From NCBI GenBank assembly GCA_944325905.1, contig CALVBY010000005.1, forward strand, positions 1 through 46,231: 46,231 nucleotides of DNA, given 5' to 3'. Origin of the DNA: Candidatus Gastranaerophilales bacterium. Its GTDB lineage: Bacteria > Cyanobacteriota > Vampirovibrionia > Gastranaerophilales > Gastranaerophilaceae. The position numbers were made by a program, and so were the translations under genes. The notes beneath the pieces were generated by a model. It was not told the origin of the DNA, searched no databases, and saw only the letters and a list, made by a program, of their open reading frames with translations. Below, piece by piece: positions 1 to 11,891 of the stretch; within the stretch, counting starts at the first letter, position 1; every line of letters starts with the position of its first letter.

Positions 1-65
1 CAAAAGTTGCCGCCGTGCGCGCAGCACTTAACATAATCTTTAAAATTAAACATGGGTTCAATAAT
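1..65. repeat. 3' end of a GC-rich dispersed repeat (copy 1, cut by window edge)
   Basis: The first 30 bases are identical to 11333-11362, and similarity continues at roughly 85-90% to about base 65. At the second copy the shared segment is the right half of a long hairpin, so copy 1 probably continues upstream of the window. The GC-rich part contrasts with the AT-rich flanks. Family unknown. Confidence 0.8.
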
Positions 66-104
66 AATTTTATATAAAAACAGAGTCAAACCGCGAATAT
101 TTGA

Positions 105-461: not shown

Positions 462-3400
462 ATGTCTAAGACAAAATACGCAGAAAGAGTAACTCCAATG
501 GGTATTCCGCATACTCGTTTGGACGATTTACCGGACCTTATTGAAGTGCAAAAGAAATCTTTTGAATGGTTTTTAAAAGAAGGCTTGAAGGAAGAATTAC
601 TTTCATTCAGCCCTATTAAAGACTACACAGGAAGATTAGAATTACACTTCTTACCAAATTATACTTTCGACAATGCAAAGTATACAGTAGAAGAAGCTAG
701 AATCCATGACGCAACATATGCAAAACAATTGCGCGTTATGATCAGATTAGTAAACCGTGACAGCGGTGAAATCAAGGAACAAGAAGTTTACATCGGCGAC
801 ATCCCGACAATGACTGACAAAGGTACATTCATTGTAAACGGTGCTGAACGTGTAATCGTATCACAAATCGTACGTTCACCTGGTGTATATTTCAAACGTG
901 AAGTATCACCTGCAGGAAAACGCTTGTATAACGCAACAATGATTCCTAACCGCGGAGCATGGTTGAAGATAGAAACAGACAGCAACGATTTAATTTATGT
1001 CAAGATAGACAAAAATAGAAAAATCCTTGCTACAACTTTATTAAAAGCAATGGGCATAACTGTTTCTGAAATGGAAACTTTATTCACACACTTTGAATTC
1101 TTGAAAAAGACATTGGATAAAGATACAACAGAAACAACAGACGATGCTTTAATCGAAGTTTATAAAAAACTAAGACCTGGCGATCCTGCATCTCCTCAAG
1201 GCGGACGTTCAATATTGGAAGCTCGTTTCTTTGATGAGAAAAAATACGACATCGGTCGTGTTGGTCGTTATAAATTAAACAAAAAATTAAACTTGAACAT
1301 TCCTAAGAACCAAAGAACATTAACAGTTCAAGATATCGTTGCATCAATTGAATACCTAATCAATTTGACATATGATGAAGGTACATTGGATGACATCGAC
1401 CACTTAGGAAACAGAAGAATCCGTTCAGTAGGTGAATTGCTACAAAACCAATTCAGAGTAGGTCTTTCAAGAATCGAAAGAATTGTAAAAGAAAGAATGA
1501 CCCTACAGGATTCAGAAACATTAACCCCATTGAACTTGTTGAACACTAAACCATTAGTTGCTTCATTGAAAGAATTTTTCGGAAGTTCACAGTTGTCACA
1601 GTTCATGGATCAAACAAACCCATTGGCTGAATTAACACACAAAAGACGTATTTCAGCATTAGGACCTGGCGGTTTGATGAGAGAACGTGCAGGTTTTGCG
1701 GTTCGTGACATTCACCCTTCACACTATGGACGTATTTGTCCGGTTGAAACTCCGGAAGGTCCGAACGCAGGTTTGATCGGTTCATTGGCAACACACGCAA
1801 AAGTAAACGACTACGGATTTGTTGAATCTCCATTCTTTGTAGTAAAAGACGGTGTAGTAACTGACGAAGTTCACTACTTGACAGCAGATGAAGACGAAAA
1901 CTTCCGTGTAGCACCGGCAGACGTACAATTAAATAAAGACAGAAGCTTTAAAGATGAATACGTTCCGGTACGTTATCACTCAGAATTCACAATGGGCGAT
2001 TCAAAGAAAGTTGACTACGTAGGTGTTTGTCCTATTCAGATAATCTCAGTTGCGACATCAATGATTCCGTTTATTGAACACGATGACGCTAACCGTGCAT
2101 TGATGGGTTCAAACATGCAACGTCAAGCAGTTCCATTGTTCATAACTCAAAGACCGGTAGTAGGAACAGGGTTGGAAGCAAGAGCTGCTAAAGACTCAGG
2201 TATGGTAATCGTATCTGAAGTTGACGGTACTGTTGAAAGAGTAGTCGGTGAAGAAATTGTTATTCGTGATAAACAAAATAACCCTCACGTATATCAATTA
2301 ATGAAATACGTAAGAAGTAACCAAGATACATGTATTAACCAACGTCCTATAGTAAACGAAGGCGATAAGGTTAAAGCCGGTGATGTAATCGCAGACGGTG
2401 CATCAACTTGCGGTGGAGAACTTTCATTAGGTAAAAACGTTCTTGTAGCGTATATGCCTTGGGAAGGTTATAACTTCGAAGATGCTATCTTGTTATCAGA
2501 AAGATGTGTTCACGATGATATCTTCACATCAATCCACATTGAAAAATTAGAAATAGATGCAAGACAAACAAAACTTGGACCTGAAGAAATTACCCGTGAA
2601 ATTCCAAACGTTTCAGAAGACGCTTTGAGACACTTGGACGAACGTGGTATTGTTCGTATCGGTGCAAGAGTTTATGCAGATGATATATTAGTCGGTAAAG
2701 TAACTCCAAAAGGTGAATCAGAACATCCGCCTGAAGAAAAACTTTTAAGAGCAATCTTTGCTGAAAAAGCAAGAGACGTAAAAGATAACTCTTTAAGAGT
2801 CCCTCACGGAGAAGGCGGTCGCGTTATCGACGTTAAGGTATTTGACAGAGAAAAAGGTGACGAATTGCCACCTGGTGCAAATACAGTAATCAGAGTTTAC
2901 ATCGCACAAAAACGTAAGGTTTCAGTTGGTGATAAACTTTCAGGACGTCACGGTAACAAAGGTATCGTATCACGTATTTTACCGAAAGAAGATATGCCGT
3001 TTATGCCGGATGGTACACCTGTTGATATCGTGTTGAACCCACTTGGTGTTCCTTCACGTATGAACGTTGGTCAAACATACGAATTATTGCTAGGTTTGGC
3101 AGCATATTTAACAGGAAACTATTACGAAGCACCATCATTTGATGAAATGTATGGCGAAGCTCAATCAGAAATCGCAACAAAACACGAATTATTAAAAGGT
3201 ATCAAAGAAAGCGGATGCGATTGGGTAACAGAAGACGGTAAAGTAAGACTTATCGACGGAAGAACAGGTGAACCGTTTGATGAACCTGTTGCAGTAGGTC
3301 TTTCATACATCTTGAAACTTGTCCACCTTGTTGACGATAAGATTCACGCACGTTCAACAGGTCCTTACTCTCTTGTAACACAACAACCTTTAGGTGGTAA

Positions 3401-3779
3401 GGCACAGTTCGGCGGACAAAGATTTGGTGAAATGGAAGTTTGGGCATTGGAAGCATACGGTGCTGCTTATACATTACAGGAAATGTTAACAATCAAATCC
3501 GATGATGTAAACGGTAGAAACCGTGCTTACGAATCAATCGTAAAAGGCGACAATATTCCAAGACCAGGTATTCCTGAATCATTTAAGGTACTTGTAAGAG
3601 AATTGCAAAGTATCGGTTTGGATATTACAGTAGCGAAAAAAGACGGTGAAGAAGTCGATTTAATGAGCGATATGGATGATTTAAGAAAATCAGCACCAAA
3701 ACGTACATTATCAGACATCGATTCAGAGTTGTTGAATATCAACTTCTTTGAAACACCGACAACTTTCGGTGATCTTTAG
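462..3779 (+). CDS. rpoB: DNA-directed RNA polymerase subunit beta
   Basis: This is the beta subunit of RNA polymerase, forming one jaw of the catalytic cleft. At 1105 residues it is close to the short cyanobacterial form and lacks the large insertions of the E. coli protein. The rifampicin pocket (about residues 374-405) contains SQFMDQ, THKRR and ISALGPGG, matching the drug-sensitive consensus. The conserved [12 protein letters not shown] block follows near residue 823, and the C-terminus has the [20 protein letters not shown] anchor for beta'. The ATG is preceded by GAGG at proper spacing. It is first in an operon with rpoC1 and rpoC2. Identification is certain. Confidence 0.99.
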
Positions 3780-3790
3780 AAATAATTTAA

Positions 3791-3809
3791 GCGGGGATAA
3801 TCTCCCCGC
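3791..3809 (+). other. rpoB-rpoC1 intercistronic stem-loop
   Basis: A perfect 7-bp GC stem (3791-3797 with 3803-3809) has a 5-base loop and no T run. It is therefore not an intrinsic terminator; RNA processing or mRNA stabilisation is more likely. The rpoC1 ribosome-binding site AAAGGAG follows. Confidence 0.6.
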
Positions 3810-3827
3810 CAATAAAAGGAGAAAATA

Positions 3828-5537
3828 ATGTCAACAAGCATAGATTATTTTGACTATATACGAATAAGTATAGCTTCACCGGAAAGGATTTTGAAATGGT
3901 CCTACGGCGAAGTAACAAAACCGGAAACAATAAATTACCGTACCTTGAAACCTGAAAGAGACGGTCTATTCTGCGAAAGAATTTTTGGACCTACAAAGGA
4001 TTGGGAATGCTATTGCGGTAAATATAAAAGAGTAAGACATAAAGGTATTATCTGCGAACGCTGCGGTGTTGAAGTTACTGATTCAAAAGTACGTCGCCAC
4101 AGAATGGGCCACATCAAACTTGCAGCTCCGGTATCACATATCTGGTTCTTAAAAGGTATTCCATCATACTTGGGTTTACTTTTGGATATGACTTTGAAAG
4201 ATTTGGAACAGGTAATTTACTTCAACAATTATGTTGTAATCGAACCTGGTGAAAGTCCTTTCAAAAAATTCCAATTGTTAGGTGAAGAAGAATACGAAGA
4301 TTATATTGCTGAAAACGAAGAAACTGAATTGAAAGTAGGTATCGGCGCAGAAGCAATTAAAGAACTTTTAGCAGAAATTAATGTAAAAGAATTGGCAGAA
4401 GAAATTCGTTCAGAATTAGCAGGAAACGTAACTTCTGTTCAAAGAAAAAGTAAATTAATCAAACGATTAAGATTACTTGATGCATTAATTTCATCAGAAA
4501 CAGATCCAACCTGGATGATAATGGACGTATTACCGGTAACACCGCCGGATTTAAGACCGATGGTACAGTTAGACGGCGGACGTTTTGCAACATCAGACTT
4601 GAACGATTTGTACAGACGTGTAATTAACAGAAACAACCGTTTACAAAGACTTTTGGAAATGGGCGCTCCTGAAATTATCGTAAGAAATGAAAAACGTATG
4701 TTACAAGAAGCAGTTGATGCATTGATAGATAACGGCCGCAGAGGTAGAACAGTTGTTGGTCCTAACAACCGTGCATTGAAATCATTATCAAATATCATTG
4801 AAGGTAAACAAGGTCGTTTCAGACAAAACTTACTTGGTAAACGTGTTGACTACTCAGGTCGTTCAGTTATCGTAGTAGGTCCGCAATTGAGCTTGAATCA
4901 GTGCGGTTTGCCAAAAGAAATGGCTATTGAATTGTTTAAACCATTTGTAGTTAATAAACTTATTGAAAGAGGATATGTTCAAAATATCAAATCAGCTAAA
5001 AAGAAAATTGAACGTTCCGAGGCGATAGTTTGGGATATATTAGAAGAAGTAATTGACGGACACCCGGTACTGTTGAACCGTGCTCCAACCTTGCACAGAT
5101 TAGGTATCCAAGCATTTGAACCTAAGCTTGTAGAAGGTAGAGCAATCCAATTGCACCCGTTAGTATGTACAGCATTCAACGCTGACTTCGACGGTGACCA
5201 GATGGCTGTTCACGTGCCGCTTTCAATCGAAGCACAAACAGAAGCAAGAATGTTGATGCTCGCTACAAACAACATCTTGGCTCCTGCAAACGGAAAACCG
5301 ATTATTACACCTTCTCAAGATATGGTACTTGGTATGTACTACCTAACCATCTTGAAAAATCCTGAACAAGAACCTAAAGGTTACTTCTATAACTTCCAAG
5401 ACGCAATTTCAGCTCTTGAAGTAGGCGTAATCGACTTGCACGACAAAATCGTTGTAAGAAATGAAAAAGGTGAAAGAATGGAAACTACAGTAGGAAGAAT
5501 TATTTTTAACGAAACTGTTAAAAATGCTCTTGCTTAA
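3828..5537 (+). CDS. rpoC1: DNA-directed RNA polymerase subunit gamma (N-terminal part of beta')
   Basis: This is the N-terminal portion of beta', encoded separately as in cyanobacteria and plastids. The zinc ribbon has Cys61, Cys63, Cys76 and Cys79. The absolutely conserved NADFDGDQM, whose three aspartates hold the catalytic magnesium, is at residues 451-459. The protein ends at residue 569, where other bacteria continue as one chain. A strong SD (AAAGGAG) precedes the ATG. rpoC2 follows after a 36-bp gap with its own SD and ATG, so this is a genuine gene split and not a frameshift. It is somewhat shorter than the roughly 620 residues usual in cyanobacteria. Confidence 0.97.
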
Positions 5538-5573
5538 TGTAAATAAAGGTAATAATTAAAAAGGAAATACATA

Positions 5574-8500
5574 ATGGAAACAACATACATTCATGAAAAA
5601 AAGACACCCGAATACATTAACAAACAAATGGATAAAAAAGCACTAAACAATTTGCTTGCACAAATGTATTTGGAATATGGCGGTGCAAAGACAGCAGAAC
5701 TTGCTAACGCCTTGAAGAACTTGGGCTATAAATATGCGACCAAGTCAGGAACAACGATTTCCATAGCTGACTTGCAAGTTCCTCCTGCAAAAAAAGAACT
5801 TTTGCAAGAAGCTGAAAAAGAAATTGAACAATCAACAAACAGATATCTAAAAGGTGAAATCACCGAAGTAGAAAGATATACAAAAGTTATCGATACTTGG
5901 TCAGAAACAACCGCAAAATTAACAGAACAAGTAGTCGAAAACTTTGACAGATTAAACCCTGTGTATATGATGGCATTCTCCGGTGCGAGAGGTAACTTAT
6001 CACAAGTATCACAATTGGTAGGTATGCGTGGTTTGATGGCAGACGCACAAGGTCAAATCATCGACTTGCCTATTAAATCAAACTTTAAAGAAGGCTTATC
6101 CGTAACTGAATACATCATTTCATCATACGGTGCTCGTAAAGGTCTTGTAGATACAGCGTTAAAAACAGCTGACTCAGGATACTTGACAAGACGTTTGGTT
6201 GACGTTGCACAGGACGTTATAATCAGAGCAGAAGATTGCCACACAACAAAATCAATTAACATGAAACCTATTGTTGATGGTGATGCCGTTATTGTACCTT
6301 TGATTGACAGATTGTTAGGAAGAACAGTTGCTGAAGATATCAAAGATACTGACGGAACAGTTCTTGTAAAATCAGGAACGACTCTAAACCGTGATGATAT
6401 TAAAAAGATTGCACACTTAAACTTGCAAGAATTAAAAGTACGTTCAGGCTTAACTTGTGGACTTGAATATGGTATATGTCAAAAATGCTACGGTTGGGCA
6501 ATGACAACTCAAAAACTGGTTGATGTGGGTGAAGCAATCGGTATTATCGCGGCACAATCAATCGGTGAACCTGGTACACAGCTTACAATGAGAACCTTCC
6601 ACACAGGCGGTGTATTCAAAGGTTCAGGTGCTATGAAGCACATTGATGCTAAATCTGCCGGTGAAGTTGTATCAAATGTGAAAACAAGAGAACTAAGAAC
6701 TCGTCACGGTGATATCGTAAATGTCGCAAACTACGAAGCTGATATTGAAGTTAAGGGAGCAAAAAGAACTGAAAAATATCACATCCCTGCAGGTTCAACA
6801 GTATTCTTCACTAACGGTATGAAGGTAGAAAAAGGATTCACGTTGGCATCCTACGAACCAGCTTCTCAAGGTGACGGTTCACGTTTGACTGAAAAAGCAA
6901 CAAAAGATATCAACGCAGATTTGAGCGGTGAAGTTATATATGAAGACTTCGTTGCCGATGAAAAGAAAGACAGACAAGGCAACATCTCAAGAACTACAAA
7001 TAAACAAGGTGTTATTTGGGTTCTTGGCGGTGATGTTTACAACTTGCCTGGCGGTTCAAAAGTAATCGTTAAAGACGGTCAAAAAATAAAAGAAGGCGAA
7101 AAATTAGCTGAAACATTAACAATCTCTGAACACGGCGGTGAAGTTCGTTTCGGTGAAGATTTGGTTATTGAAGATGTTAATTTTGAAGGCAAAAAGATTA
7201 AAAAGATTGTACAAGGTAAAGAAATCACCATTGTAATCGCATCTTTGATGCCAGAAAATGCAACATTTGAACAAACTAAAAAAGAACAACTTTGGACAGT
7301 TAAGAAAACAGGTGAAAAATACATTGTAAAAGCACCTATAGATACAACTGTTGAAAACGGTATGATTATAGCTGAACTTTTGGATGACGAATGTGCAGTA
7401 ACAAGCTCAGGTGAAATCAGATACGTAGATGTAGAAGTTGACGAAAATCAAATTATTACAAAACCAGGAACAGTCGTATTTATTCCGGAAGAAATCCACC
7501 AAATTTCAAAAGACAGTTCTTTGAAAATGGTTGAAAACGGAACATACGTAACAGCCGGTACTGAGATTGTAAAAGACGTTTACTGTCATATAGACGGTAT
7601 CGTTGAGTTCAAAGAATACAACGAAATTATTCATGAAATCACAGTTAGACCTGGAGAAATCCACTCACTATCAAGTGTTTCTGAATTAAAAGTTGATGAA
7701 GGCGAAGTTGTTAAAAAAGGAACCGTTATTGCTGACGGTATCAAGGCAAAAGAAACTTCTATCGTTACAATTATGGATTCATCAATGGATGATATCGATA
7801 TTGAAGATTTGGATGAGGAACTTGATTCAAGTCTTTCACTTGATGAAGATAACATCTCAAATCAACCGATACAAATATTGGTTAGACCTGTTCAAGTACT
7901 TGATGTTAAACAAAAAGACGTATCAATCAAGTTCAACACTACCGATGAATTAATTGATATAGTTCCTGTAACTCAACTTCAGTATAAAGACGGAGCAAGA
8001 GTAAGAAATCTTGACGGTTCAACAATTACAAGAACAAGCTTAGTTCTTCAAATGCAAGGCTACCTATCACACTTAAAAGGAATGGTAGAATTGGATGACA
8101 AAGGTAATTTAAGAATTGTAGTTCTTGAAAACTTAATTGTTCGTCGTGAATTTGAAGGTAATTCAAAATTATTATCAGCTCTTCAAACAGAATTGCTTGT
8201 TAAAGACGGTCAAACTATCGAACCAAAAACACCTATTGCAAAAACACAAGTGCTTGCAATCAACGATGGTGTAGCTTCAATTAGTGAAGGTAAAGCTGAC
8301 AATAGACGTCTTTTATTAACAAGTGAAAAATACGAAGAAGTTGTTAAGATTAAATCAACTGCAAGCGTTAAGAAGGGTGATTTTGTAAAAACCGATGCAA
8401 TTATTTCATCAAACGGTGACAAATCACCAGTGTCAGGTCTTGTTGTTGCAGTTAATAAAGGCGAAATAACTGTAAGAACCGGACGTCCTTACTTGATCAG

Positions 8501-9434
8501 CCCTGGTACTATGTTGCAAGTTGAATCAGGCGCATTGGTACTTCGTGGTGATATGATTGCTACATTGGTATTTGAAAGACAAAAAACAGGCGACATCGTA
8601 CAAGGTTTGCCAAGGGTTGAAGAACTTCTTGAAGGTCGTAAACCTAAAGATTGTGCAATTCTTGCAGAAGAAGACGGTGTTGCAGAAATCGAAACTGATG
8701 ACGATTTGCCAAGATTATACCTAGTAAATGAAAACGGCAGAGTAGAAATCAAATACGCAATCGATGCAAACATTATCGTTCACGATAAACAAAAAATAAC
8801 AAAAGGTCAGCCTTTAACAAGCGGTCCTTTGAACCCGCATGACGTAATTAGACTTTGCGGAGTTGAGGCAGCTCAACAATACTTGGTTGACGAAGTACAA
8901 CGTGTATATCGCTCACAAGGTGTAGAAATCGCAGACAAACATATCGAAATTATCGTACGTCAAATGACTAAGAAAGTTAAGATTATTGATGCCGGCGATA
9001 CAAACCTTCTACCTGGCGAGCTTATTGAACTTCAAACATTTGAAGAAGCAAATAAAAAGGCTGAAGAGGAAGGTAAAGTTCCAGCAACTTGCGAATACAT
9101 GTTGTTAGGTATAACAAAAGCTTCATTGAATACTGAAAGCTTCATTTCAGCAGCCTCATTCCAAGAAACAACAAGAATCCTGACAGAAGCTGCAGTTGAC
9201 GGAAAGAAAGACCTGTTAAGAGGATTAAAAGAAAACGTAATTATCGGTCGTTTAATACCTGCAGGTACAGGCTTCCACCATCTGTCTAACGCCAACGAAG
9301 AAAAAGAACGCGAAGCAAGAAAACGTGCAGTAGCACAAAGAAATCAGGCAAGAAAACCGTCTGCAATTTTGGAAGAAATTGAAGGCATGTTCGGCGCTCC
9401 TGATTTCACATTAGACGATAACGAAGATGAATAA
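5574..9434 (+). CDS. rpoC2: DNA-directed RNA polymerase subunit beta' (C-terminal part)
   Basis: This is the C-terminal portion of split beta'. The second zinc site uses Cys222, Cys295, Cys302 and Cys305. The bridge helix/trigger loop block [19 protein letters not shown] with MRTFHTGG lies near residues 318-346. About 640 residues then separate the trigger loop from the conserved [19 protein letters not shown] (about residue 1003), corresponding to the giant SI3 insertion of cyanobacteria, built of repeated beta-barrel-like modules. Within it, residues about 733-760 are a strongly acidic Asp/Glu/Ser linker. The C-terminus carries the conserved [17 protein letters not shown] element. SD AAGGA precedes the ATG. 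A terminator follows. Confidence 0.97.
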
Positions 9435-9452
9435 TCATACTTCAAAATAACA

Positions 9453-9482
9453 AAAAAAGCCTCCAAATCCGGAGGCTTTTTT
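9453..9482 (+). terminator. Intrinsic terminator of the rpoBC1C2 operon
   Basis: GCCTCC (9459-9464) pairs with GGAGGC (9471-9476) around a 6-base loop. An A tract lies before the stem and six T follow it. It could act in both directions. Confidence 0.93.
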
Positions 9483-9532
9483 CATTTATTTACATTATAT
9501 ACAAAAAACAAAAAACTTATATAATATAGTAT

Positions 9533-10609
9533 ATGAAAGAAAAAACTATAGACGATTACAGACGCGAATTTTATCAGGTATATCATAAAGAAATTCTGCC
9601 AACACTTATTGAATTTGAAGAAAAAAGAAAAGGCAGCTTCAGCTTTTGTTTTTTTATTGAAGTAATTGTAATAGCCGCATTTGCATTGGTATCTTATTAT
9701 TCACTAAAGGATGCAACAGATATAGTATGTCAAATTTTGAGTCTTATTCTTGGATTGGCTGCAATAGCAATACCACATTATATGAATAAAAATTTTATAA
9801 AAATGCTAAAAAAGGAATGCATGCACAGTTTAACAAAAGTATTTGGTGATGTAGAATGGGGGAATGGACTATTTTTTATAACAGATGAAGAACTGGGGAA
9901 AAGCGAATTATTTGCTGGATATAACAGAAGAAGCAACGATGATTCTTTCAAAGGTAAATATAACGGGGTTAACTTTGTAATTTCGGAAACAAAACTTGTA
10001 AACCAAACAGGCAGCGGCAAAAATCGTCGCAGACGGACAATATTCAAAGGAATCATAATAAATTTTGAATCAAACAAAACTATACGTAATAAAACAATTA
10101 TTACTACAAAATGGGATATGCATACCGCCAGAATGGGCAAGTGGATGTTTTTCAGCTCCATTTTACCCCTATTTGCATATATATACTTATTCCCTGAGCT
10201 CAAAATCCTGCTTATAGCAGCGGTAGCACTTGCAATAATTGCGATTTTCACATTCTTTTCAAAAGGGAACGGTGAAGTAATGGACGAAGTTAACCTTGAA
10301 GATCCAGTATTCGAAAAGAAATTCAATGTATATTCATCCGATCAGGTGGAAGCAAGATACTTAATTACAACCGCATTTATGGAAAGATTTAATAACCTGA
10401 ATACAGCTTTTGGTGCTAAAAAAGCAAAATGTTCTTTTTTTGATAACACAATAATGTTTGCGATTTCAACACACAAAAACCTGTTTGAAATAGGGAACTT
10501 ATTTATGAGGCTGGATGACCCAAACAGAATAACCAAATTTTTTAACGAAATCGCATCAATTCTGATACTTGTTGACTATTTCAAACTTGATGAACACATA
10601 AAATTATAA
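9533..10609 (+). CDS. DUF3137-like membrane protein
   Basis: Function unknown. The C-terminal half contains the pattern EDPVFEKKFNVYSSDQVEAR followed by YLIT and FMERF, which I recognise as typical of DUF3137 proteins. Two hydrophobic segments lie at about 40-86 and two more at about 203-242, so it is probably an inner-membrane protein with soluble parts between. The 358-residue length fits the family. A TATAAT box (9520-9525) ends 7 nt before the ATG and there is no Shine-Dalgarno, suggesting a leaderless mRNA. It stands alone after the rpoC2 terminator. Confidence 0.8.
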   Translation: MKEKTIDDYRREFYQVYHKEILPTLIEFEEKRKGSFSFCFFIEVIVIAAFALVSYYSLKDATDIVCQILSLILGLAAIAIPHYMNKNFIKMLKKECMHSLTKVFGDVEWGNGLFFITDEELGKSELFAGYNRRSNDDSFKGKYNGVNFVISETKLVNQTGSGKNRRRRTIFKGIIINFESNKTIRNKTIITTKWDMHTARMGKWMFFSSILPLFAYIYLFPELKILLIAAVALAIIAIFTFFSKGNGEVMDEVNLEDPVFEKKFNVYSSDQVEARYLITTAFMERFNNLNTAFGAKKAKCSFFDNTIMFAISTHKNLFEIGNLFMRLDDPNRITKFFNEIASILILVDYFKLDEHIKL

Positions 10610-10704
10610 TTCAAATTACAAAAGAGATTTTTAAACAAAATAGCTGATTTTGCAAAGGTTTAGGGAATTTTTTGCCGTATAAAGTAATAAAGAAAGGAAC
10701 TTTT

Positions 10705-10866
10705 ATGGCAAGAATAATTGAAGGTGAAAGAAGATTAATCAAAATGAGCGTAGATGATGTAATAAGCATAGTTAGGGAATACCAGCAGATATGCAAAAAC
10801 AGCTGCTGCTATGAACATACGCGTGAGCTTTTGGCAAAAGCCGATTTTTATATCCCTGAGGATTAA
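10705..10866 (+). CDS. Small conserved-looking protein of unknown function (53 aa)
   Basis: Unknown function. The ATG at 10705 is chosen because AGAAAGGAAC lies 4-12 bases upstream; an in-frame ATA/ATG-less extension starting near 10672 has no such site. The protein begins MARIIEGERR and is mostly charged and helical, with a CKNSCC cysteine cluster near residues 31-36 and an acidic end. No membrane segment is visible. It sits between the DUF3137 gene and the repeat island. A real gene is likely from the good ribosome-binding site and compact length, but there is no homology claim. Confidence 0.6.
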   Translation: MARIIEGERRLIKMSVDDVISIVREYQQICKNSCCYEHTRELLAKADFYIPED

Positions 10867-11119
10867 CATTACCTAAAAATACTATCCGCGGCAGGATAAT
10901 ACATTGTCTCTACATAAAAACTATTAAAGGTATCTTTTTGTTCACTTTTTCTTAACTTGTTTGCTCGCGTTAAACGGGACTGCAACGTCGTCGCCAGCGT
11001 GCCGCCGCTTCGCCCTCTGCTCGCAATCCGCTTTATTGCGATGTAAAAAGAAAAACACGCGTGTTTACTTGCAATCCTACGGATTGCTCAAGCCATAACG
11101 GGCGCACATCCGTGCCGTT

Positions 11120-11184
11120 GCAAATTTTACACCATATTTCCTCTCCTCTTGTGGGAGAGGTAGGGTGAGGGGTGTAAAATTTGC
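11120..11184. repeat. Nested palindromic repeat element
   Basis: The outer arms 11120-11133 and 11171-11184 are perfect 14-bp complements. Inside, CCTCTCC (11140-11146) pairs with GGAGAGG (11154-11160), followed by AGGGTGAGG. The inner unit recurs in altered form at 39936-39997. The two-level symmetry suggests a REP/MITE-like element or an insertion into a palindrome. Confidence 0.75.
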
Positions 11185-11332
11185 AATCGTTCCCTGCACT
11201 TTCTTACTCACTCGCATTAAACGGCATTTTGGTCAGCGGAGTTCTCCGCCGACCTTCAGCCTCTGCTCGCTCGCACCTAAGGACAACGGCGCGGTTTGAC
11301 TAAATCCAGCGTACGGTGGTTACTTTTGACAT

Positions 11333-11398
11333 CAAAAGTTGCCGCCGTGCGCGCAGCACTTATTATAATCTTCTAAATTAAATAATGGTTCAATAATA
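11333..11398. repeat. Dispersed repeat, copy 2 of the window-start element
   Basis: Bases 11333-11362 are identical to 1-30, and similarity continues to about 11398. Together with 11312-11332 it forms a hairpin centred on ACTTTTGA-CA-TCAAAAGT, with mostly complementary CGG(T/C)GG arms outside. Confidence 0.8.
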
Positions 11399-11420
11399 GT
11401 AATAGTTTTTATGTAACAAT

Positions 11421-11480
11421 TAACCACAAACATTACCCACTTGTGGTTATTGATATTTTCTTTTTGTTTTATGCTAATAT
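11421..11480 (+). promoter_or_regulatory. Extended -10 promoter with upstream inverted repeat (thioredoxin-ccdA)
   Basis: TAATAT (11475-11480) is preceded by TGC, an extended -10 pattern, with TTGATA (11450-11455) as a possible -35 at 19 bp. Immediately upstream is a perfect 9-bp inverted repeat, TAACCACAA (11421-11429) and TTGTGGTTA (11441-11449), which abuts the -35 and could be an operator. SD AGGAGAG precedes the ATG at 11502. Confidence 0.5.
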
Positions 11481-11501: not shown

Positions 11502-11891
11502 ATGAAGAAAAACTTGATTACGGTTATATTAGTTTTAGCAGTCCCAATAATTGCATATATGGCACTCACAAAATCAACTGCAACAACAGCTCAACCGACA
11601 GATGCAATGAACAAACCGCAAGTGTTGAAATTCACATCAAAAATGTGTCTTGACTGCCAAAAAATGAATACCGTTTTTAAGGAAATCTTCCCTCAATATG
11701 AAGGTAAAATAATTCTGACAGAAATTCCTGTTCAAGACGGAACCTCTTTCACTAATTCGCAAATTGAAAAATATAACGTAACACTTGTCCCGACGATAAT
11801 TCTTTTAGATTCATCAGGTAAACAAGTTAGAAGAATTGAAGGTGCTATAGAAAAAGAAGAAATGAATAATTACTTGAAGGATCTTAAGTAA
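11502..11891 (+). CDS. Membrane-anchored thioredoxin-like protein
   Basis: A thiol-disulfide exchange protein probably acting outside the cytoplasmic membrane. Residues 5-22 form a hydrophobic anchor or uncleaved signal, followed by a Ser/Thr/Ala-rich spacer and a thioredoxin fold. The active site is Cys49-Leu-Asp-Cys52, and the cis-proline is in LVPTI further on. The length (129 residues) fits a single domain. The next gene, a CcdA-like thiol transporter, begins 1 bp after its stop; this pairing fits delivery of electrons from cytoplasmic thioredoxin to an extracytoplasmic thioredoxin. The final target (cytochrome maturation, secreted proteins or peroxide reduction) cannot be told. Confidence 0.9.
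   Translation: MKKNLITVILVLAVPIIAYMALTKSTATTAQPTDAMNKPQVLKFTSKMCLDCQKMNTVFKEIFPQYEGKIILTEIPVQDGTSFTNSQIEKYNVTLVPTIILLDSSGKQVRRIEGAIEKEEMNNYLKDLK

Follow-up and report, generated by a model that had tools for sequence, protein, structure and literature searches.

A GC-rich, hairpin-dense island beside the rpoBC operon

The window, that is the whole stretch of DNA analysed (46,231 bp), is the entire contig C5 of a 1.6-Mb assembly in 92 contigs. Closest named relatives of its rpoB are found in two assemblies from gut or rumen (91%), one of them labelled Candidatus Gastranaerophilales. rpoB (462-3779) is followed by rpoC1 and rpoC2, which represent two halves of rpoC, by a DUF3137 gene and by a small ORF of 53 aa (10705-10866); then come the island and, from position 11502, a thioredoxin-DsbD-ribH cluster (trx cluster). 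The GC content reaches 0.491 at 10955-11398, while the two flanks have 0.325 and 0.332 and the window 0.360, and among 4579 sliding windows of 444 bp five were equally GC-rich, every one overlapping the island. Six pairs of inverted repeats were found in 10900-11450, and folding was far stronger than for dinucleotide shuffles (z of -5.65 and -5.95 for the two strands, with none of 100 shuffles as good on either). Direct repeats D1/D2 (17 and 14 nt), with a spacing of 246-247 bp, mark two diverged internal units. Bases 1-30 of the window are identical to 11333-11362, and the corresponding blastn match spans 1-66 at 89%. The longest open stretch within the island is 66 codons.

Thus the features first described at this place, a GC-rich and hairpin-dense block with two diverged internal units, a right end repeated at the window start with a 30-base identical core and an absence of coding potential, were all recovered. 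The block delimited in the original prediction (10955-11398) is real but too narrow: the unit extends over 10911-11415 and is closed by a perfect 16-bp inverted repeat, TACATAAAAACTATTA (10911-10926 / 11400-11415). Its parts are listed in Table 1, where the 28-bp extent of the left end site is set by analogy with dif.

Table 1. Features of the island, of the window start and of the candidate chromosomal dif. Positions are those of the window unless a locus is given.
Feature	Position	Strand	Description
Whole dif-module	10911..11415	.	505 bp, between the small ORF and the thioredoxin gene; end sites as in the 48 copies of six genomes
Left dif-like site	10907..10934	+	outer arm 10907-10917 TCTCTACATAA; centre AAACTA 10918-10923; inner arm 10924-10934 TTAAAGGTATC
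Right dif-like site	11392..11419	-	orientation opposite to left site; outer arm 11409-11419; centre 11403-11408 (AAACTA on - strand); inner arm 11392-11402, a poor match to dif
Internal unit 'a'	10957..11039	+	insert of about 80 bp in a hairpin arm, approximate limits; TTGCTCGCGTTAAACGG...CTCTGCTCGCAATCC; D1/D2 direct repeats
Conserved core	11056..11122	+	three short hairpins; match to covariance model R1
Long hairpin	11118..11186	+	arms 11118-11133 / 11171-11186 (I4, 100% complementary); CCTCTCC...GGAGAGG hairpin inside
Internal unit 'b'	11198..11275	+	diverged relative of 'a', approximate limits; in L182 it occupies the loop of a CCGCGCC...GGCGCGG hairpin
Terminal hairpin, right end	11309..11352	+	I2, 81% complementary; also seen at the window start and, in the G012 copy, at the left end
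Right end of a second module	1..80	.	upstream of rpoB, truncated by the contig start; degenerate site at about 53-80; a module occupies this place in G002 too, about 400 bp ahead of rpoB
Candidate chromosomal dif	L311:1502-1519 (G000:C1:17943-17961)		TTACATAA-TATATA-TTAT; inside a Methyltransf_30 reading frame

Mosaic structure of the interior

The interior of the modules is a mosaic of hairpins. Units 'a' and 'b' are inserts of about 80 bp, which in other copies interrupt the arm or the loop of a hairpin; a relative of unit 'a' interrupts another hairpin in L202, and this hairpin is intact in L203. These units also have matches outside the genus (G018:C10:14215, G029:C1:2162, G035:C1:736322 and G019:C155:9934), and for this reason they are probably repeats of their own, which insert into hairpins.

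The very strong folding and the conserved three-hairpin core are what would be expected of a multi-copy family of structured non-coding RNA, an identity proposed for the island at the outset, and the covariance model marks the family well. Yet almost no compensatory change was observed: a two-sided change occurred in just one of the 15 core pairs, and mismatches in the stems (7 G.T against 10 A.C on the core-sense strand, few data) showed no G-U bias. Moreover, the island had no match in Rfam, and the interiors are mosaic and lie in either orientation relative to the neighbouring genes. We consider an RNA family to be highly improbable, and this part of the original prediction is abandoned.

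Distribution of the modules

The family is not restricted to the two copies of the window, a case that would have counted against the original prediction: blastn matched 19 places in the module's own genome, and of 40 genomes sampled around it, its own counted, 19 had matches. With at most one mismatch, the 16-mer end was found in 14 of the 16 genomes of the genus and reached 37 copies in one genome. The exact 19-mer TTTACATAAAAACTATTAT was present in eight of 286 genomes of the order, all from this genus (no hits for the control), and the hairpin core (R1) in ten of 286, namely eight of this genus and two, with weak scores, of another; per-genome counts of the core are lower bounds, 18 candidates having been scored per genome. 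The window module had no match in 72,556 plasmid records, and no match was found in phages and viral contigs, the latter searched with one exact pattern.

Closed modules amounted to 48 in six genomes, with lengths of 310-790 bp, and none lay inside a reading frame. Their flanking genes are arranged in tandem (24), convergently (13) or divergently (8), or are incomplete (3). The host group consists of uncultured gut and rumen bacteria that carry small gene-free cassettes dispersed along their chromosomes. Upstream of the thioredoxin gene, in two species that have no module there (L142 of G003 and L131 of G014), other palindromic repeats, of GAGGAACGAAGTGACGAAGCAATCC type and CCTCTCCC type, were seen at the same intergenic place.

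Module ends have a dif layout and matched centres

The E. coli dif site reads GGTGCGCATAA-TGTATA-TTATGTTAAAT, and Xer recombination requires equal centres in the partner sites. In the 48 site pairs, the module ends read TACATAA-N6-TTAT, with near-constant arms and six variable central bases. These are mostly AAACTA, and also AATATG, TATATT, TGTATA, ACAATA, TAAATA, TATTTA, TAACTA and AAATTA. Per-position identity of the centre was 0.94-1.00 within pairs against 0.65-0.98 between modules, and no such excess was observed directly outside the site. The 48 pairs had been selected by complementarity, and the centre test was therefore rerun with a search for the arms alone, in which each core was assigned the closest site to its left and the closest to its right. 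Recognisable sites flanked 47 of the 70 cores on both sides. The two centres were the same in 39 of these 47 pairs, compared with at most 32 in 20000 permutations, and centre mismatches numbered 15 compared with at least 31, modules at one locus in several species (L188, L210 and L264 are one site) not being independent in these counts. Among the eight differing pairs, five differed by one base, and the three others involved a nearer inner site while an agreeing outer pair was present. Further differing pairs, outside this set, are L201 (TAAATA/AAACTA), one on G000:C12 (GAATTG/GAATTA), a short remnant in L313 and a pair in L305. The remaining 23 cores had no recognisable site on one or both sides; about half of them lie at contig ends, and away from contig ends the sites have presumably decayed.

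When 400 kb of G011 were scanned for the arms with any centre, seven inverted pairs emerged, four with like centres (three different ones) and one with centres one base apart; control patterns gave one and zero pairs, none alike. Centres also differ between species in a concerted manner. One locus carries TAACTA at its two ends in G004, against AAACTA in G011, G009, G013 and G002; a second has AAACTA at either end in G000, against AATATG, again at either end, in G002, G011 and G013. Such a change at both ends together is what recombination that homogenises the two sites would be expected to produce.

Read outward, the outer arm is TTATGTAAA, which we take to resemble the XerD arm of Bacillus. 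The outer arm would then be the XerD arm, and the elements would be 'C modules', with the XerC sites inside, in the terms used in the consulted sections of PMC13141974. Beside the main module, L186, L199, L197 and L219 carry a segment of about 110 bp between sites of the same orientation, which Xer could excise.

Our first reading of these repeats was a MITE family, that is, non-autonomous transposons with terminal inverted repeats mobilised by a transposase in trans; it agrees with copies that are dispersed, intergenic, short, gene-free and bounded by inverted ends, and with the existence of a genome, G006, that has no module at the orthologous place. It was dropped once the central 6 bp of the supposed terminal repeats turned out to co-vary, since this middle varies between copies and agrees within a copy, which independent mutation would not give. 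The same arms are also present at a conserved place, once per genome (in most genomes, among the matches listed), interiors are found flipped in place (both described below), and among the sites listed we noticed no longer element that has such ends. A close empty site suitable for a target-duplication test was not found, the module-free place of G006 being too diverged. We judge a MITE family quite unlikely. Of the non-autonomous mobile element put forward in the original prediction, the many dispersed gene-free copies stand; the ends are Xer/dif-like and not those of a transposon, and no insertion with target duplication was seen.

Interiors occur in both orientations at orthologous sites

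Sites were taken as orthologous when both flanks matched between species over at least 250 bp. At nine of 12 such sites the interior was found in both orientations, and all pairwise assignments were consistent. The 43 orientation rows comprise 25 inverted and 18 same; after hand correction for one place fetched twice in two genomes, 38 distinct comparisons remain, 21 inverted and 17 same. Between G011 and G013, whose flanks are 89-99% identical, six of the nine common sites listed are inverted, one of them judged by a single flank. The clearest case is L174/L231: flanks are 98% identical, and the interiors, similar save for a length difference of 48 bp, are reversed between the same two sites. 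The window's module lies the same way round in G002 and the opposite way in G009, and in G012 the module at this place has a left end that corresponds to the right end of the window's module. This comparison of assemblies, one per species, indicates that modules flip. At some sites interiors have also been exchanged: among seven closed G011/G013 pairs the orthologue ranked first as a match three times and second once, and came lower in the other three.

With inverted sites, identical centres and interiors in both orientations, the modules have the anatomy of an inverton and might accordingly be phase-variation switches whose inversion toggles neighbouring genes. They are, however, not concentrated upstream of genes, as the gene arrangements given above illustrate, and the neighbours of the window's module are housekeeping genes. 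Such a role is unlikely.

Relocation of the rpoBC segment

The original prediction that rpoBC is bracketed by members of one repeat family held, and the bracketed segment has moved in two relatives. We compared rpoB-rpoC1-rpoC2-DUF3137-small ORF (window 462-10866) with loci L352, L353, L354, L357, L358 and L360. In G006 the order is geneX-rpoB-rpoC1-rpoC2-small ORF-trx and no module was found. G012 has one module, before trx, and G002 has a module on either side of the segment from rpoB to the small ORF, a layout like that of the window; in the window's genome geneX is on another contig, where it ends at a module. A single module joins geneX directly to the trx cluster in G011 and G013. The 10.8-kb segment from rpoB to the small ORF, 97.9% identical between these two genomes, is elsewhere in both, in surroundings that differ between them; it is flanked by one module in G011 and by two, one at either end, in G013. 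Gene order in these assemblies thus shows a rpoBC segment framed by two modules that no longer stands at its ancestral position in two sister species. The geneX-module-trx junction is the same in two separate assemblies. By eye, G011 and G013 have an extra reading frame between module and trx (L135, L136), which the window lacks.

In a second case, the flanks of two modules are exchanged in G004 (L283 and L281) relative to L191 and L193 of G000: in L283 the left flank is that of L191 and the right flank that of L193. Either a rearrangement whose two breakpoints fall at modules or a misassembly would account for this; in single cases of this kind misassembly at repeats can mimic a rearrangement.

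Excision between direct sites of two modules would directly explain the relocation of rpoBC; homologous recombination between module copies is an alternative for this move, and larger rearrangements might in part reflect misassembly at repeats. More generally, RecA might drive the inversions and rearrangements while the dif-like appearance is incidental: long similar stretches are common to modules at different loci, which would suffice for exchange between loci. Inversion in place would, however, have to proceed through 17-bp ends, and dif-like arms, centre rule and a conserved single-copy relative would be left unexplained, so that we hold this view to be very unlikely. The suspicion of a recombination hot spot, on the other hand, is borne out by modules in either orientation at orthologous sites and by the relocated rpoBC segment.

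A candidate chromosomal dif and two Xer recombinases

A search with the canonical dif arm pattern CATAA-N6-TTATGTTAA gave 81 matches, below the 110 of its control, and was discarded; a Bacillus-like arm led to a conserved site, the candidate dif of Table 1. This site shares the arms of the modules and could be aligned from 14 of the 16 genomes of the genus. Over these 14 genomes its 18 invariant bases form the longest invariant run of a 1.9-kb alignment (the next being 8). Among 117 genomes from the order, 111 contain it when one mismatch is allowed, and most genomes have exactly one perfect copy among the matches listed. Mean identity between module inner arms and dif beyond TTAT was 0.57 (96 arms), compared with 0.27 for 427 TTAT places in the window. 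GC skew showed no clear switch near the candidate dif. The genome encodes two full-length Xer-type recombinases, both above the NF001399 cut-off, which form a candidate XerC/XerD pair, and two short integrases. In the consulted part of a dif survey (PMC3025954), no dif is predicted in the five Cyanobacteria of its table, and 93.92% of predicted sites lie in non-coding DNA. A candidate is now offered for a lineage close to this phylum, for which that part of the survey gives no predicted dif.

Similar sites in other genera

Some genera are rich in dif-like sites that have other centres; one genome, G020, has 23 of them. In a 400-kb scan of this genome three inverted pairs were observed, two of them alike, and none for the control. 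Twenty stretches around chosen sites of other genera, from a search that allowed only centres close to TATATA and is therefore biased in its choice of centres, contained 12 inverted pairs 100-1000 bp apart; the row of L402, a site overlapping its own reverse reading (length 0), is excluded. Centres were identical in 11 pairs, the exception being L407, and no frame above 70 aa was found in the interiors. In nine of the 11 same-centre pairs the polarity is opposite, with D arms inward by our reading. Non-coding modules with other centres were seen in L393-L395, L397, L401-L405, L410 and L412.

Interpretation and comparison with known systems

Taken together, the island is best explained as a chromosomal dif module, a gene-free and hairpin-rich cassette with two inverse sites usable by host XerC/XerD, to which we assign a probability of about 0.8. 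Comparison between genomes shows what this explanation draws on: the dif layout, the matched centres, arms that match a conserved candidate dif, interiors in both orientations, exchanged interiors and the move of rpoBC. XerC/XerD would presumably be the agents. Acting on the inverted site pair of one module they would invert its interior, and acting on direct sites of neighbouring modules they would excise and re-insert the DNA between. The modules are most likely mainly selfish passengers on the host Xer system, and they most likely double as rearrangement points. Xer recombination alone does not explain their dispersal to new sites. As a lead, a single strand could restore a whole site through the closing stem.

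A broader picture, to which we give somewhat less than even odds, would extend across Gastranaerophilales: gene-free elements may have turned a dimer resolution site into a dispersed recombination network, in which lineage-specific sites derived from dif, with private centres unlike the true dif, recombine among themselves rather than with dif. Chromosomal DNA between modules would then consist of mobile segments, rpoBC included, and the self-complementary interiors might be transmissible as a single strand folding a Xer site from both ends.

Like MITEs, BOX and BIME elements, the modules are short, dispersed, non-coding, hairpin-rich and modular; unlike them, they end in dif-like recombination sites with matched centres. 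CTX-type phages exploit host XerC/XerD with an attachment site that can fold from one DNA strand, and the closing stem of the modules could similarly fold a site. Whereas these phages carry genes and integrate at dif, the modules have no genes and other centres.

The closest parallel is offered by the plasmid dif (pdif) modules of Acinetobacter, segments between inverse sites that consist of a XerC arm, a 6-bp spacer and a XerD arm, where excision between direct sites and both C and D modules are described (PMC13141974, sections consulted). Site layout, inverted pair, centre rule and inversion (here by comparison only) are shared. According to the same sections, Acinetobacter modules are plasmid-borne, mostly gene-bearing and arranged in alternating C/D arrays; those described here are single, gene-free and scattered over the chromosome of a distant phylum, and their spacer is usually equal at both ends of a module. 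Array and gene cargo are absent here, yet neither is defining: the array belongs to the setting in Acinetobacter and not to the mechanism, and at least one module without predicted reading frame is reported there (PMC13141974).

The chromosome of Acinetobacter strain M10 similarly has many additional dif-like sites that frame modules, 22 sites when the main dif is counted; in the consulted text (PMC12907356) ten of them cluster in one gene-bearing resistance island, whereas the present ones are dispersed, non-coding and hairpin-rich. In Ureaplasma parvum, too, short inverted repeats are sites of specific inversion for which Xer-type recombinases are candidates, at two phase-variable loci as far as the consulted parts of PMC3599477 describe, compared with dozens of non-coding modules here. 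Among open-licence papers we found none on such modules in Gastranaerophilales or Melainabacteria. Set against the known dif modules, which in the sources consulted lie on plasmids or in islands and mostly bear genes, the new element is a chromosome-wide, gene-free set in a non-photosynthetic relative of cyanobacteria. If this is true, Xer-site cassettes would be a more general kind of mobile DNA, able to move essential operons.
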